Positions 47,118-54,481 of a DNA stretch of 64,000 bases are shown piece by piece. The position numbers were made by a program, and so were the translations under genes. Each line of letters opens with the position of its first letter. Positions within the stretch are counted from its first letter, which is position 1. Origin of the DNA: Coprinopsis marcescibilis (taxonomy: Eukaryota > Basidiomycota > Agaricomycetes > Agaricales > Psathyrellaceae); the NCBI GenBank assembly GCA_004369085.1, contig ML210147.1, positions 868,001 through 932,000 on the forward strand, read 5' to 3'. The notes beneath the pieces were generated by a model that was given only the letters and a program-made list of their open reading frames with translations, had not been told where the DNA came from and ran no database searches.

Positions 47118-49595
47118 ATGGATACGCCGTTCGCCAACTTGCTCAATACCAACCATGTTCCTTCCGACGCTCAGCTCGCCCAGTTGCGCACCTTCCTCGA
47201 CGACGAGCCCCGCACAACGATGACCGCGTTTGACACTCAGGAGCAAAATCTTCTCAACGCCTTGGAATCCTTACGAAAGAAGAAGGGAGATTGTCAAAGT
47301 TTTATCGACAAGCACAAGGCGATAATGTCGCCGTTTAGGAGATTGCCCTTTGATGTACTCCAGACCATATTCTTGTTCTGCATACCTGTGGAGCATAACG
47401 CAGTCATGTCAACATCCCAGGCGCCTATGCTGTTGACTCATGTCTGTCACAGATGGAGGGAGGCAACTTTATCGATGCCCTCATTGTGGGCCACGCTTCA
47501 CATCCCAATCCCTGCTCAGCCGGCCGGGCCGTATCGTTCTTCATTGCACGAATACGACTCGTTCTCCGTCGCGTTCGCCGCCCAAGCAGTTGGGGCCAAC
47601 CCGCCACCGCCGGCACCATTGCGAGAAGAGGAGCATCAAGTTTTGGCGTATTGGAAAGCAGTGTATGATACATCGCTTGCACACTGGAAGAGGAAGATGG
47701 AGGTACGAATGGCGTTTGTTGAGGAGTGGCTTCGACGGGCGGGGGGTCTGAAGCTTTCCATCAACATCATCGAATGGGCCCCACCTCCCGATCGCAGGAC
47801 TATCACCCACAGTTGGAAAAACAAGCTTCCGGGACAGAAGATCAAGCTCCTCGATATCCTCAAATCCCATGCAGCTCGTTGGGAGCGTCTAGAATTAAGC
47901 GTCACCTGGCGTTTCCTTTCCGAGATCCTGTCGACCGAAGCTCCGAATATGAAGTACTTCAAAGTCTGCTATGCACCAATGTCACCCCCGAATTTCTTCG
48001 AGTCGAACTCACGGTTTGTCATGTCGCAAGTCACTAGTGACGAAGAAGAGGATCAATCGGCAGAAGAAGCTGCTGCAAGTGCAGCACAGGCAGCGGCCCA
48101 GACCATGTACACAGAAAGCAAACTGCTCAAGTCCTCAAAATTGAGCACTCTTTACCTCAAAACCCTCACTACCGACATATTTCTGCTTCCAACCCGCTGG
48201 GAGAATATCACAGAACTCTTCTTTGAAGGATATTCTAGTCGATTCCCGACGTGGACGCCATTGCCGGGGATGGGAACCCTTACGAAGTTTGGCAAGACTG
48301 AAGCGAAGGACCTGCTGACTCGGTGCCCCTGTCTGAGGAAGTGCCATCTTCTCGTCGGGAGAGGGGACCGAAGAAATCGTAACCCTCTTTCCCTCTTGAT
48401 CCCGAACCAAGCGAAGGAAGTCATAACGCTCCAACACCTGGAACATTTGTCGGTGCACGAAACCAATCCTAGGGAGGAAGAGGCACTGGCTTCTCTCTTC
48501 GAATCCTTCCAATTTCCAGCACTTCGCTCGATAGTTTTCACGACGTCCGCCCTACCACGCCTCTCAAGGCGCTCCTCACTTATCACCCTCCTTACCCAAT
48601 GCACAAACGACATCCAAAAGTTGGCAATCGACTATAGAAGCTTTACGAAGACAGATCTTTCGGAGGTCTTGGGCATGGTTAGTGAGACGGTCGAAGATCT
48701 GTGGTTGACGGTGGATTATTGGGAAACGAGAGAAGGACACTGGTATTATGAGGATGAAGCCGCGGCAGGGATGGGGGCCACTGCTGTTGGCCCTGGGGCG
48801 CAGAATCTGAACAGACCTGCTCCATCCTTCTTGATGAACGACTTCTTGGAAGAGTTGACACCTGACATTCCTCCTCCCCCTCGATCCGCTGACGCGATGG
48901 ATGAGAGTGGGGATGCGGAACCTTTCAGAGGAGTTGAGCCTGCGGTGACGGTCACTAAACGAGTACTGTGCCCCAACCTTCGCTTGTTCTCTTGCAGGTT
49001 GCGTTCGGCAGAGTTTGACGAGCCGACATTGCTCAAATTCATCAGGGCGAGGAGGAGCAATCGGGTTTTGGAGTCGGGTGCGATCAAGCAGATGATTAGG
49101 AGAATCAAGGTACTCTTCGCCGTCAAGTCGAGGGAGGAGATACCTGCGGCAGAGGGTGACAACCAGTACAATATTGGAGGGATGCTCGTTGTCGAAGCAA
49201 GCCAAAAGTTTTCTACGAATCAGGAGAAGAAGAAACCTGCACATAACATTCACTCGTATGTTTTCGACTCGCTCAAGGACGATGACGATGTGTATTTTGG
49301 AATACCGGGAGTTGGTGCGCAGAAGGATACGGAGAGAGATGTGCTGGAACAGTCCCAGGAAGCTAGGCAGGAATTGCACACGAAAGGGAGGTTACAGGTC
49401 AAACTTGGCTGGCCGCCTGAACCCCGGATCGCTTTCTTTCCAAAGGGTTACCCCGACCTGCCCACTGTCAGTGCGGCTACAATTGCCTCTAGGGTCTGGT
49501 CACCGCACTGTGGCGCATTCGGAACGATGAGTTTGCCGGGAGGGGGGTCGGCGGAGAATAGGGGGTTGACAGATTCTGGTGTTCGAATCTTTTGA
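47118..49595 (+). CDS. F-box protein, intronless
   Basis: One uninterrupted frame of 825 residues starting at MDTPFANLLNTN; seven further in-frame codons upstream lack an ATG. An N-terminal helix (about 30-75) precedes the F-box-like region FRRLPFDVLQTIFLFCIPVE (~75-95), then LLTHVCHRWREATLSMPSLW, the standard continuation in agaricomycete F-box proteins that join SCF ubiquitin ligases through Skp1. The rest resembles degenerate leucine-rich repeats in spacing but is not clear enough to count them. An acidic Ala-rich insert (EEEDQSAEEAAASAAQAAA) lies near 320. Lack of introns is unusual in this window, where nearly every other gene is heavily split. The substrate is unknown. Confidence 0.85.
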   Translation: MDTPFANLLNTNHVPSDAQLAQLRTFLDDEPRTTMTAFDTQEQNLLNALESLRKKKGDCQSFIDKHKAIMSPFRRLPFDVLQTIFLFCIPVEHNAVMSTSQAPMLLTHVCHRWREATLSMPSLWATLHIPIPAQPAGPYRSSLHEYDSFSVAFAAQAVGANPPPPAPLREEEHQVLAYWKAVYDTSLAHWKRKMEVRMAFVEEWLRRAGGLKLSINIIEWAPPPDRRTITHSWKNKLPGQKIKLLDILKSHAARWERLELSVTWRFLSEILSTEAPNMKYFKVCYAPMSPPNFFESNSRFVMSQVTSDEEEDQSAEEAAASAAQAAAQTMYTESKLLKSSKLSTLYLKTLTTDIFLLPTRWENITELFFEGYSSRFPTWTPLPGMGTLTKFGKTEAKDLLTRCPCLRKCHLLVGRGDRRNRNPLSLLIPNQAKEVITLQHLEHLSVHETNPREEEALASLFESFQFPALRSIVFTTSALPRLSRRSSLITLLTQCTNDIQKLAIDYRSFTKTDLSEVLGMVSETVEDLWLTVDYWETREGHWYYEDEAAAGMGATAVGPGAQNLNRPAPSFLMNDFLEELTPDIPPPPRSADAMDESGDAEPFRGVEPAVTVTKRVLCPNLRLFSCRLRSAEFDEPTLLKFIRARRSNRVLESGAIKQMIRRIKVLFAVKSREEIPAAEGDNQYNIGGMLVVEASQKFSTNQEKKKPAHNIHSYVFDSLKDDDDVYFGIPGVGAQKDTERDVLEQSQEARQELHTKGRLQVKLGWPPEPRIAFFPKGYPDLPTVSAATIASRVWSPHCGAFGTMSLPGGGSAENRGLTDSGVRIF

Positions 49596-51632: not shown

Positions 51633-52568
51633 CTATATGTTTTCTGTCAACCAACGCAGGCCTGTACAAGCTCAGGTGAGCAACCGTTTCTCATGGAAAT
51701 ATATAGTCAATCACCTTCTTGATAACCTTCCCTCAGTACTACTGAGCACATGAACACCTCTAATGGGCGAATACCAATCATCTTCCAATTGGGTCCCTAG
51801 ACGGTTACGACAATCATTTCAGCATGTAGCTTCTCGGAACCAAAGAAACGAGGACGCACCCAATTTTCCCTCCCCGTCGTCTTGCCATTCAATCCAAGTT
51901 CTCGGCGAAGCTCATTCTCACCAACGGCACCATTGGCGTCTGTCTTGTTGCCAAGGATAGCGATAGGTATGTCTGGAAGGTCCTTCCATGAGAATAGAGA
52001 GCTGAGCTTCGCCTTGACTTCAGGAAAGCGATCAGGGTCAGAGCTATCTACGAGGTAAACAATTCCATCGGCCTCGGCAATGTAATCCTTTAATAAATAA
52101 CGACCTGTAGATGGTCAGCTAGCTTGAAGAGGAATGGTTGTGCAAGTACTCACACCGATGATGATCAGGTATATCGTAAATTGTGAATTTGGTGCCTTCA
52201 AAAGAAATGTCCCCTGATGCTAGATAAATTCCGTGTGGGTATTTACAGGAGGGTATTGGTGTAGTAAGCGCACATGCCCAAAGGGAGGAGGCCATCAGTT
52301 CAAGCCTGTCGTGTTCGAGCAAATGCAACAACGTCTAGTAAAGTAAGCAGTGTGAGCGTAAGGCACTATGCCGCAGGAATAATGGGCAGCACGTACCGTT
52401 TTCCCTGCGTTGTCTTGGCCCAGGAAGAGGATTTTAGAACGCTTAACAGGCCATCCTACACGAGGCGTCAGCACCTAGCAGACCCAGTGCTTCCGTGAAA
52501 GTTGAACTACCGAGTGCGGACGCTGGAAATGCCCATGCCCAGTGGCAGCAATCACGAACGGAGGCCAT
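51633..52568 (-). CDS. Diverged SAR1-like GTPase, tandem paralogue of SAR1
   Basis: Seven exons (52568-52511, 52455-52397, 52334-52274, 52219-52154, 52104-51860, 51796-51715, 51661-51633) join in phase to an intact 199-residue protein. It aligns end to end with the canonical SAR1 at 53512-54481, including a W-x-W near the N-terminus. All six introns match the first six of SAR1 in position and phase. The P-loop is kept (GQDNAGKT), as are NKTD (G4) and GIRPLEVFMCSVV. The G3 motif is DIPDHH instead of DLGGHQ, so the invariant glycine of DxxG is lost. Switch I reads SSLWAS in place of PTLHPT. It may bind nucleotide but is unlikely to switch like SAR1. The uninterrupted frame argues against a dead pseudogene. 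Confidence 0.87.
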
Positions 52569-53511
52569 AGCTGTAAGTGGTGGAAAGAGTAGAAGGGAAA
52601 GCGGAGTCAAGGTACGAGAGAGGGCAACCCAAGGACAGCCAACCGCTGGCAAGGAGTAGAACGCGACAAAAGGTCCGAGGCAGCCGAGATAGTAGGTACT
52701 ACGAGCGCTTGGCCCAGTCGGCGAGGCCACAAATCCTGCTCAAGTCAAGTAATTGAGCAGGACACACGCTGGAGGGGAACCGTAGTAGAGTTGGTATGCA
52801 TCACGCAGCCATTGCGTAGTAGCTCAGCGCTCAGATCTTACTTGAGCCACTGGAGGAAGGAGTCATTGGCACGACATGATCGCCGGTCGCTGCGGATGAA
52901 ATAACACATTCTTGAATGCTTGTCGCCTCTTGCCTAGTCGTCACTTGTTGCTGCTTGACTGCCGGTTGCCAGATGGTATACTACCGTCCCGGGTAGAGCC
53001 AAGGGTTCTCAAGCGTTCTCCTCGACAATAATTGCATGCCCGAATATGGACACTGGTAACATGGGAAGGAGGGACGAAGTGAACCAATGTCACCACGATG
53101 ATTCGGCACCAAGTAGACGATAGGAAGTGATGTTCATGTTAAAGTTTCCTGGGGCCTGGGCCCTACAGAAATTTACCACATGAACAGATGACGTTCGACG
53201 ATAGAATAAAAACACGATTCACAGAGGAGCAAAATGTGATGAACCACTTTCAATTATTCAGATGGCGCGCTTTCACATGCTAAATACTCACCTCCACCCA
53301 ATCTCATACAACGTATTGTCGTTCATCACGTTAACTACATTATGCAAAAGAAAGTCTACAAAAGAGGTCAATGCCCTAAAAGCATAGACGGGAAGTATAT
53401 GAATGTATAGAGAGTATGGGTCTACGAAACCCTAAGCGAGAATACGAAGAAACTGTCACAGTAGCAACGCAACAGAAGGTCGACCGCCGTTACGCTGACC
53501 GCCACGATAGC
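52569..53511. other. Intergenic region between SAR1-like gene and SAR1
   Basis: Holds the upstream region of the paralogue and the 3' end of SAR1. It contains a perfect 10-base inverted repeat at 52734-52762. No gene recognised. Confidence 0.5.
52734..52762. repeat. Perfect 10-base inverted repeat
   Basis: TCCTGCTCAA (52734-52743) and TTGAGCAGGA (52753-52762) are exact reverse complements with a 9-base spacer. It lies about 170 bases upstream of the start of the SAR1-like gene, so it may sit in its promoter or leader. Confidence 0.5.
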
Positions 53512-54481
53512 TTAGATCTAGAACGCATAGTTAGTTTATTTCCACGTAGGTTAGTCTGAAATGTTCGTACATATTGTGATAACCATCGGAAACCTGAGCA
53601 AGATGTGAGTAAGCCGGTGTAAATTAACGGGAGAGCGGTAATATACTGACCTTCTGCGTAACCCATTCTTTGGACGACTGAGCACATGAAGAGTTCAATG
53701 GGGCGAATATCGCTCAATGGATTTTTGCCCTAGGTTTAGAAACGTGAGTGCCATCGTTCAGAACGACATGAAGTCTGTCATACCTTTCCGGTGGTCTGGT
53801 ACAGGCCAAGGTGGTGTCGGAGCTCGTCCTCGCTCACAGCGCCAGGTGCATCAATCTTGTTACCGAGGACAACGAAGGGAACCTTGGAAAGCTCCTCAAT
53901 CGACAAGAGGGCGTCCAATTCAGCTTTCGATTCGGGGAATCGCTCAAAGTCAGCGCTGTCGACCAAGAAGACAATCCCATCAACTTCAGGGAAGTAGTCT
54001 CTCCAGAGACGCCGGGCTGCATACGGAGGTTAGCACTGAGTAATCTCACCTGTTCTGGGATACCTACCCTGTTGATGGCCTCCCAAATCGTATGTAGTGA
54101 ACTTGATGTTGCCAATGGCAAGCTCTTCCGATGCTGTTCGATAATTCCACACTCAATTTCGGGTCATAGTGGGTTACGTGTCAGGACATACTGGGGTGAA
54201 GTGTCGGTTGGAGAGTCGCAAGTCTGTCGTTCTTCAACATGTGCAAGAGGGTCTAGTCAAAGTATAACGTCAGTAGATACTCCAGCCCCGGAAAGCAAGC
54301 TTCGTACCGTCTTGCCAGCATTATCGAGACCGAGGAAAAGAATTTTGGCGTTCTTCGACGCCAAACCTGTTGTCCCGTCAGGATATTCAGCTTGCGGACT
54401 TGGTACAGGGGTAATCAATACTCACCCAGAGAAGACAGGATATCCCAAACCCAGCCAAACCAGTCACTGAAGAATGCCATT
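53512..54481 (-). CDS. SAR1: SAR1, small GTPase of COPII coat assembly
   Basis: Starts COPII vesicle budding at the ER: GTP-bound SAR1 inserts its N-terminal helix and recruits Sec23/24. Eight exons (54481-54427, 54366-54308, 54252-54192, 54133-54068, 54016-53784, 53729-53651, 53593-53571, 53517-53512) join in phase to 193 residues. The hydrophobic N-terminus is [20 protein letters not shown] motifs are all standard: [14 protein letters not shown] in switch I, DLGGHQQ, NKID, and [12 protein letters not shown]. It ends WLSQYI. The last coding exon is six bases, one isoleucine codon and the stop; it restores the family C-terminus. It is divergent from the coiled-coil gene, 361 bases away, and next to its diverged paralogue. 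Confidence 0.96.

Follow-up and report, generated by a model that had tools for sequence, protein, structure and literature searches.

SAR1, the COPII GTPase, starts the coating of transport vesicles, and inactive or locked forms of it are used chiefly as laboratory mutants. The window analyzed in this study, a 64,000-nucleotide stretch of the Coprinopsis marcescibilis genome, carries a canonical SAR1 gene and, beside it, a second gene of the same kind in which the G3 motif DLGG reads DIPD. This locus raises the question of whether the second gene is a decaying duplicate, a GTPase that still switches, or a protein retained by selection after its switch had been dismantled. The window is part of contig C2 in a 36.3-Mb assembly of 448 contigs, and the genome-wide searches reported here cover that assembly. 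On balance, our analysis of the sequence indicates that the paralogue is probably an old tandem SAR1 duplicate that was kept by selection and turned into a pseudoGTPase.

Structure of the gene pair

We rebuilt both genes from the sequence. The features of the locus, in window coordinates, are as follows.

53512..54480, minus strand: canonical SAR1, 8 exons, 193 aa; exons 54480-54426, 54366-54308, 54252-54192, 54133-54068, 54016-53784, 53729-53651, 53593-53571, and 53517-53512
52569..53511, no strand assigned: 943-bp interval from the SAR1 stop to the paralogue start codon, presumably containing the SAR1 3' UTR and the paralogue promoter
52568-51633, minus strand: SAR1 paralogue, 7 exons, 600 nt, 199 aa
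52511..52568, minus strand: paralogue exon 1, with the start codon and the N-terminal segment MASVRDCCHWAWAFPASAL
52397..52455, minus strand: paralogue exon 2, with the P-loop GQDNAGKT at 52420-52397
52274..52334, minus strand: paralogue exon 3, with the switch I sequence SSLWAS from 52289, its last codon continuing into exon 4
52154..52219, minus strand: paralogue exon 4, interswitch and G3 motif
52164..52175, minus strand: DIPD codons replacing DLGG, in exon 4
51860..52104, minus strand: paralogue exon 5, with NKTD at 51949-51938 and four additional codons toward the 3' end
51715..51796, minus strand: paralogue exon 6, with the G5 region FMCSVV
51633..51661, minus strand: paralogue exon 7 and stop, equivalent to a fusion of SAR1 exons 7 and 8

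An earlier note on this DNA had described a complete seven-exon paralogue beside SAR1, and the rebuilt models reproduced it with the same exon lengths (58/59/61/66/245/82/29 nt in the paralogue and 55/59/61/66/233/79/23/6 nt in SAR1). All introns carry GT-AG ends (6/6 in the paralogue and 7/7 in SAR1), and both frames are open to the stop codon. The note had also described the intron phases as the same. When the proteins were aligned, introns 1-4 and 6 were found at an identical column and phase in both genes, and intron 5 was identical in phase but lay three columns off, within a gapped loop; SAR1, however, has eight exons, and its last intron has no counterpart. That intron (53570-53518) leaves just six bases (ATC TAA) for the final exon of SAR1, and the paralogue either lost it or never had it.

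Two questions of splicing were considered. An alternative acceptor for intron 3 at 52214, instead of 52220, would yield a protein two residues shorter in frame, and 52220 was retained, as it matches the exon length of SAR1. The DIPD codons lie within exon 4, so the choice of splice sites cannot account for the change in G3, and alternative splicing was ruled out as its source.

A PIG-M mannosyltransferase gene is located farther downstream of the paralogue on the same strand. The window also contains a single-exon frame of 825 aa at 47118-49595 on the plus strand, the relatives of which bear F-box annotations. Counting its own product, only seven such proteins occur in the database; the nearest are from Coprinopsis cinerea, at 49%, and from Coprinopsis sp., at 45%, and a Pfam search of this protein identified no domain. 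A weak Arf-family match (23.2 bits; G000:C2:932256-932585) lies 256 bases past the end of the window.

Concentration of residue loss in the switch regions

To describe which residues the paralogue has lost, we used 184 SAR1 relatives (188 listed proteins minus four that were over-long or partial) as the conservation reference. The paralogue retains 34 of the 45 invariant SAR1 positions as against 14 of the 41 most variable ones, and conservation is higher at retained than at lost positions (Mann-Whitney P = 2.9e-6; residue-stratified permutation P = 0.0016). Among the 82 near-invariant positions, 58 are retained, and the loss is concentrated in the switches: with the N-terminal segment excluded, the core keeps 50/58, whereas the block comprising switch I, the interswitch, and switch II keeps 7/21 (P = 1.2e-5). 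Retention by region was 18/20 in beta-1, the P-loop, and alpha-1, 9/13 at positions 90-129, 6/7 in the G4 loop, 8/9 at positions 142-168, and 9/9 at the C-terminus; the corresponding values were 1/3 in the N-terminal segment, 1/6 in switch I, 1/3 in the interswitch, and 5/12 in G3 and switch II. At variable positions, the contrast between the switch block (5/19 retained) and the core (32/73) was not significant (P = 0.20).

The motifs follow the same division. The replacements of DLGGHQ by DIPDHH and of PTLHPT by SSLWAS were present exactly as the note had described them, and both G3 glycines that are missing from DIPD are glycine in 184/184 SAR1 relatives. Fifteen of the 16 G-motif positions checked are kept, the exception being T59S. 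The P-loop and NKTD had been reported as kept; GQDNAGKT and NKTD are indeed present, but the leucine of the SAR1 P-loop GLDNAGKT (L32, leucine in 184/184 relatives) has become glutamine. SAR1 GTPases characteristically begin with a hydrophobic amphipathic helix. The first 18 residues of the paralogue contain five bulky hydrophobic residues, plus a proline, compared with 11 bulky hydrophobic residues in SAR1. The mean hydrophobicity of the segment is 0.23 in the paralogue and 0.55 in SAR1, but the best 11-residue helical moment is similar (0.44 and 0.46, respectively). Membrane insertion of the paralogue's N-terminus would probably be weaker than that of SAR1.

A residue network described for Arf, Arl, and Sar proteins gives these losses a structural context. 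In the account of PMC3012027, the P-loop aspartate binds two arginines, which in turn bind two acidic residues near alpha-3; an arginine and a tryptophan of switch II contact the backbone of both G3 glycines; and the leucine preceding the P-loop aspartate packs on this set of residues. We transferred the network from Arf1 to SAR1 numbering by using our own alignment. Five of its nine residues are replaced in the paralogue (L32Q, G76P, G77D, W85L, and E113K), and D33, R82, D103, and R106 are kept. None of the five replaced residues varies among the SAR1 relatives (184/184 unchanged at each).

PseudoGTPases are characterized in PMC10731463 by a non-conservative change of key residues within an otherwise conserved G domain. 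The paralogue shows this combination: G76P, G77D, W85L, and E113K occur in a protein that keeps G1, G4, and G5, and the pseudoGTPase reading appears well supported by its residues. The retention of the P-loop, NKxD, the G3 aspartate, the catalytic histidine, and the G5 serine leads us to expect that the paralogue folds as a Sar1 G domain and binds guanine nucleotide. The change of DLGG to DIPD, together with the joint replacement of the residues through which the P-loop and helix alpha-3 are linked to G3 and switch II, suggests that the protein would not sense the gamma phosphate and would have lost switching. A proline and an acidic residue now occupy the place where the NH of a glycine usually meets the gamma phosphate, which would bias the paralogue toward the GDP form. 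The paralogue thus probably has a usable nucleotide pocket but no longer senses the gamma phosphate, and the proposal in the note of a non-switching nucleotide-binding protein remains the best reading of what was lost and what was kept.

Possible cellular roles

A change of the G3 glycine in Ras and G-alpha traps an inactive form that is able to hold the exchange factor. By analogy with these mutants, the paralogue could be a mimic of inactive Sar1 that binds a partner of Sar1-GDP (e.g., Sec12 or Sec16) and tunes or slows COPII assembly. We tentatively regard this mimicry as the most likely action of the protein, and a partner outside COPII appears about as likely. The switch surfaces that serve Sar1 partners have been rewritten, so a COPII decoy is just one possibility; a decoy for Sec12 in particular is made less likely by the fact that the rewriting extends to the surfaces with which Sec12 should interact. 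The fuller proposal, that a natural switch-dead Sar1 was selected in one mushroom lineage as a brake or tuner of COPII, with the network lost as a block and the pocket kept, is rather unlikely as a whole.

A role outside COPII, in which a switch-dead or altered SAR1 copy would use its G domain as a scaffold for a new partner, is possible, though doubtful. In its favor, the N-terminal segment is altered as well as the switches that face partners, and many G-domain pseudoenzymes serve as scaffolds. No second Sec23-type set was evident in the genome: PF04811 was found as seven pieces at only three places, each of which may represent Sec23 or Sec24. Against such a role, the paralogue has gained no partner or domain, still adjoins SAR1, and retains the Sar1 core.

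That the paralogue is instead an active but unusual GTPase, the remade switch of which still cycles nucleotide in a specialized COPII-like role, seems quite unlikely. The P-loop, NKxD, the catalytic histidine, and the switch I hydroxyl (T59S) would serve such an enzyme, and Miro GTPases likewise lack the G3 glycine, as described in PMC8146680. However, G76P, G77D, W85L, and E113K together remove much of the coupling network.

Selection and decay

To evaluate whether the paralogue had been maintained, we compared it with SAR1 at the nucleotide level. Only 8 of 48 four-fold sites are identical, which indicates that synonymous sites are saturated; at the 95% bound, four-fold divergence is at least approximately two substitutions per site. 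Identity is 77% at codon position 2 versus 35% at position 3. The comparison of dN with dS that the note had called for could be made pairwise and yielded a dN of 0.34-0.35: NG86 (Biopython) gave a dN of 0.35 with dS undefined, and maximum likelihood gave a dN of 0.34 and a dS of 2.98, a saturated value that merely bounds the ratio. If at least half of this dS arose on the paralogue branch, the mean dN/dS there would be about a third or less.

We then simulated neutral evolution from SAR1, modelling substitutions without indels. At 53% identity, the frame was open in 0.53% of runs and the splice dinucleotides were intact in 0.067%, and both survived in 0/3000. The neutral walk to 53% identity requires approximately 0.31 substitutions per site and predicts a four-fold identity of approximately 0.75, compared with the observed 0.17. 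The simulation and the four-fold sites point to constraint during most of the paralogue's existence. The note had read the intactness of the gene as a sign of selection, and the saturated synonymous sites, the simulation, and the preferential retention of conserved positions agree with it; selection probably acted on the paralogue through most of its history.

A branch-average dN/dS may also be compatible with recent relaxation or death of the gene. A formerly constrained duplicate that lost its function only recently, and is now decaying with no phenotype, is nevertheless very unlikely. In favor of decay, the terminal branch of the paralogue is very long (4.12 versus 0.12 for SAR1), and no orthologue was found among the best 120 of 1111 protein matches. 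Two of its six splice donors are weak (GTAGTT and GTGATT, with no G at +5, which is present in 7/7 SAR1 donors); paralogue introns 3 and 5 do not match the branch-site pattern, and neither does SAR1 intron 3. On the other side, a pseudogene is marked by a disabled frame or disabled splice sites, and the paralogue has an open frame and intact splice sites, a combination that survived in only 0.1% of 3000 neutral runs even at 70% identity. Its residue loss, moreover, is patterned rather than uniform.

Origin of the paralogue

The paralogue and SAR1 proteins are identical at 102 of 193 aligned residues (52.8%), and the sharing of introns described above indicates a duplication of SAR1 at the DNA level. 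Homology to Sar1 extends over the whole length, with relatives of up to 52% identity over 95% of the query among the best 120 of 1111 matches. The Pfam Arf score is 135.8 bits for the paralogue and 221.4 for SAR1, and in a comparison with solved structures Sar1 entries ranked first (e.g., 1m2o, E = 3.7e-48; 6x90, E = 1.6e-46). On this evidence, we identify the paralogue as a diverged tandem duplicate of SAR1. Synonymous saturation indicates that the duplication is not young. The two proteins have in common a five-residue N-terminal extension, of which M1 and A2 are gapped in 24/27 and 23/27 rows, respectively, of a hand-picked agaricomycete set, and this hints at a lineage-specific duplication.

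The phylogenetic tree did not settle the position of the paralogue: no placement was supported, with the bootstrap not yet settled, and forcing it together with SAR1 cost 2.5 log units and was not rejected (AU p = 0.461). The failure of the tree to place so long a branch would accommodate an ancient ARF-family paralogue such as SarB, which, like the gene studied here, is a Sar1-like paralogue occurring alongside Sar1 (PMC8358228). As described in that source, however, SarB is ancient, has a tryptophan before the Walker B aspartate, and has some intron positions exclusive to it and unshared with Sar1, whereas the paralogue has a tyrosine there (as in this SAR1), sits in tandem beside SAR1, and carries five of its six introns at the SAR1 column and phase and the sixth in phase, so that an origin from SarB or another ancient ARF paralogue was ruled out for practical purposes.

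A haplotype copy or assembly duplicate was disfavored as well, as the introns of the two genes resemble each other no more than shuffled controls do (z = -0.20 to 1.75). A protein search of the 36.3-Mb assembly returned at least 10 matches, namely seven in the gene pair (six in the paralogue and one in SAR1) and three elsewhere at 27-31% identity; these counts are lower bounds, and no third SAR1 was found in this search. The N-terminus of the canonical SAR1 (54480-54426) is itself unusual, and the database proteins P0019 (Rhodotorula taiwanensis) and P0181 (Schizopora) begin in a similar way.

Distribution and known parallels

No relative of the DxPD type was observed among the best 120 of 1111 protein matches, of which the closest was 52% identical; the named matches are SAR1 or ARF-type proteins. 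A diverged orthologue may exist beyond these 120 or be unannotated. Among the top-ranked papers of a literature search that covered few subscription journals, none reported a switch-dead Sar1 or a second SAR1 in mushrooms.

Compared with canonical SAR1, the paralogue has the whole-length homology, intron positions, P-loop, NKxD, G5 region, and C-terminus but lacks DLGG, the PTLHPT switch I, the switch II tryptophan, the coupling glutamate, and the bulky N-terminal segment. The RGK proteins (Rad, Gem, and Rem) are animal Ras-type proteins with long extensions, and their change arose independently of that in the paralogue. They resemble it in carrying an acidic residue in place of a G3 glycine (DXWE), and they are thought to depart from the GDP/GTP switch (PMC4081519). 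In the pseudoRab EhRabX10, a trafficking-type GTPase, the G3 glycine has likewise given way to an acidic residue (DTQDME; PMC8514894). Its G4 and G5 are altered too and the G2 threonine is absent, whereas the paralogue keeps G4 and G5. Septin pseudoGTPases, which arose repeatedly, retain the nucleotide site and have either lost hydrolysis (class II) or exclude GTP (class III) (PMC10731463), but they belong to a different family with a septin assembly interface. In Miro GTPases the G3 glycine is likewise unconserved (PMC8146680), but these proteins are mitochondrial and have several domains. Mammalian SAR1A and SAR1B are SAR1 duplicates of diverged function (PMC7307210), but both are switching GTPases that differ slightly. 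Acidic replacement in G3 and duplication of SAR1 are known kinds of change; the paralogue is an intact SAR1 copy with a dismantled switch, and it was probably selected.

SAR1 is essential in yeast (PMC8146680). If the proposed reading is true, a natural copy with the pocket but not the switch would reveal which surfaces of Sar1 function independently of GTP switching and would offer a ready-made tool to tune protein export in the fungus. The lost residues belong to the coupling network published in PMC3012027, and the paralogue thus presents a clean test of the conversion of a G domain into a pseudoenzyme. If the gene proved confined and silent, it would merely be an ordinary diverged duplicate. 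Another diverged SAR1 copy may be Mycena rosella P0050, a fast-evolving SAR1 (branch 0.42 versus a median of 0.067) with an altered switch I (ALAPTVQPSSEE) and an intact DLGG.
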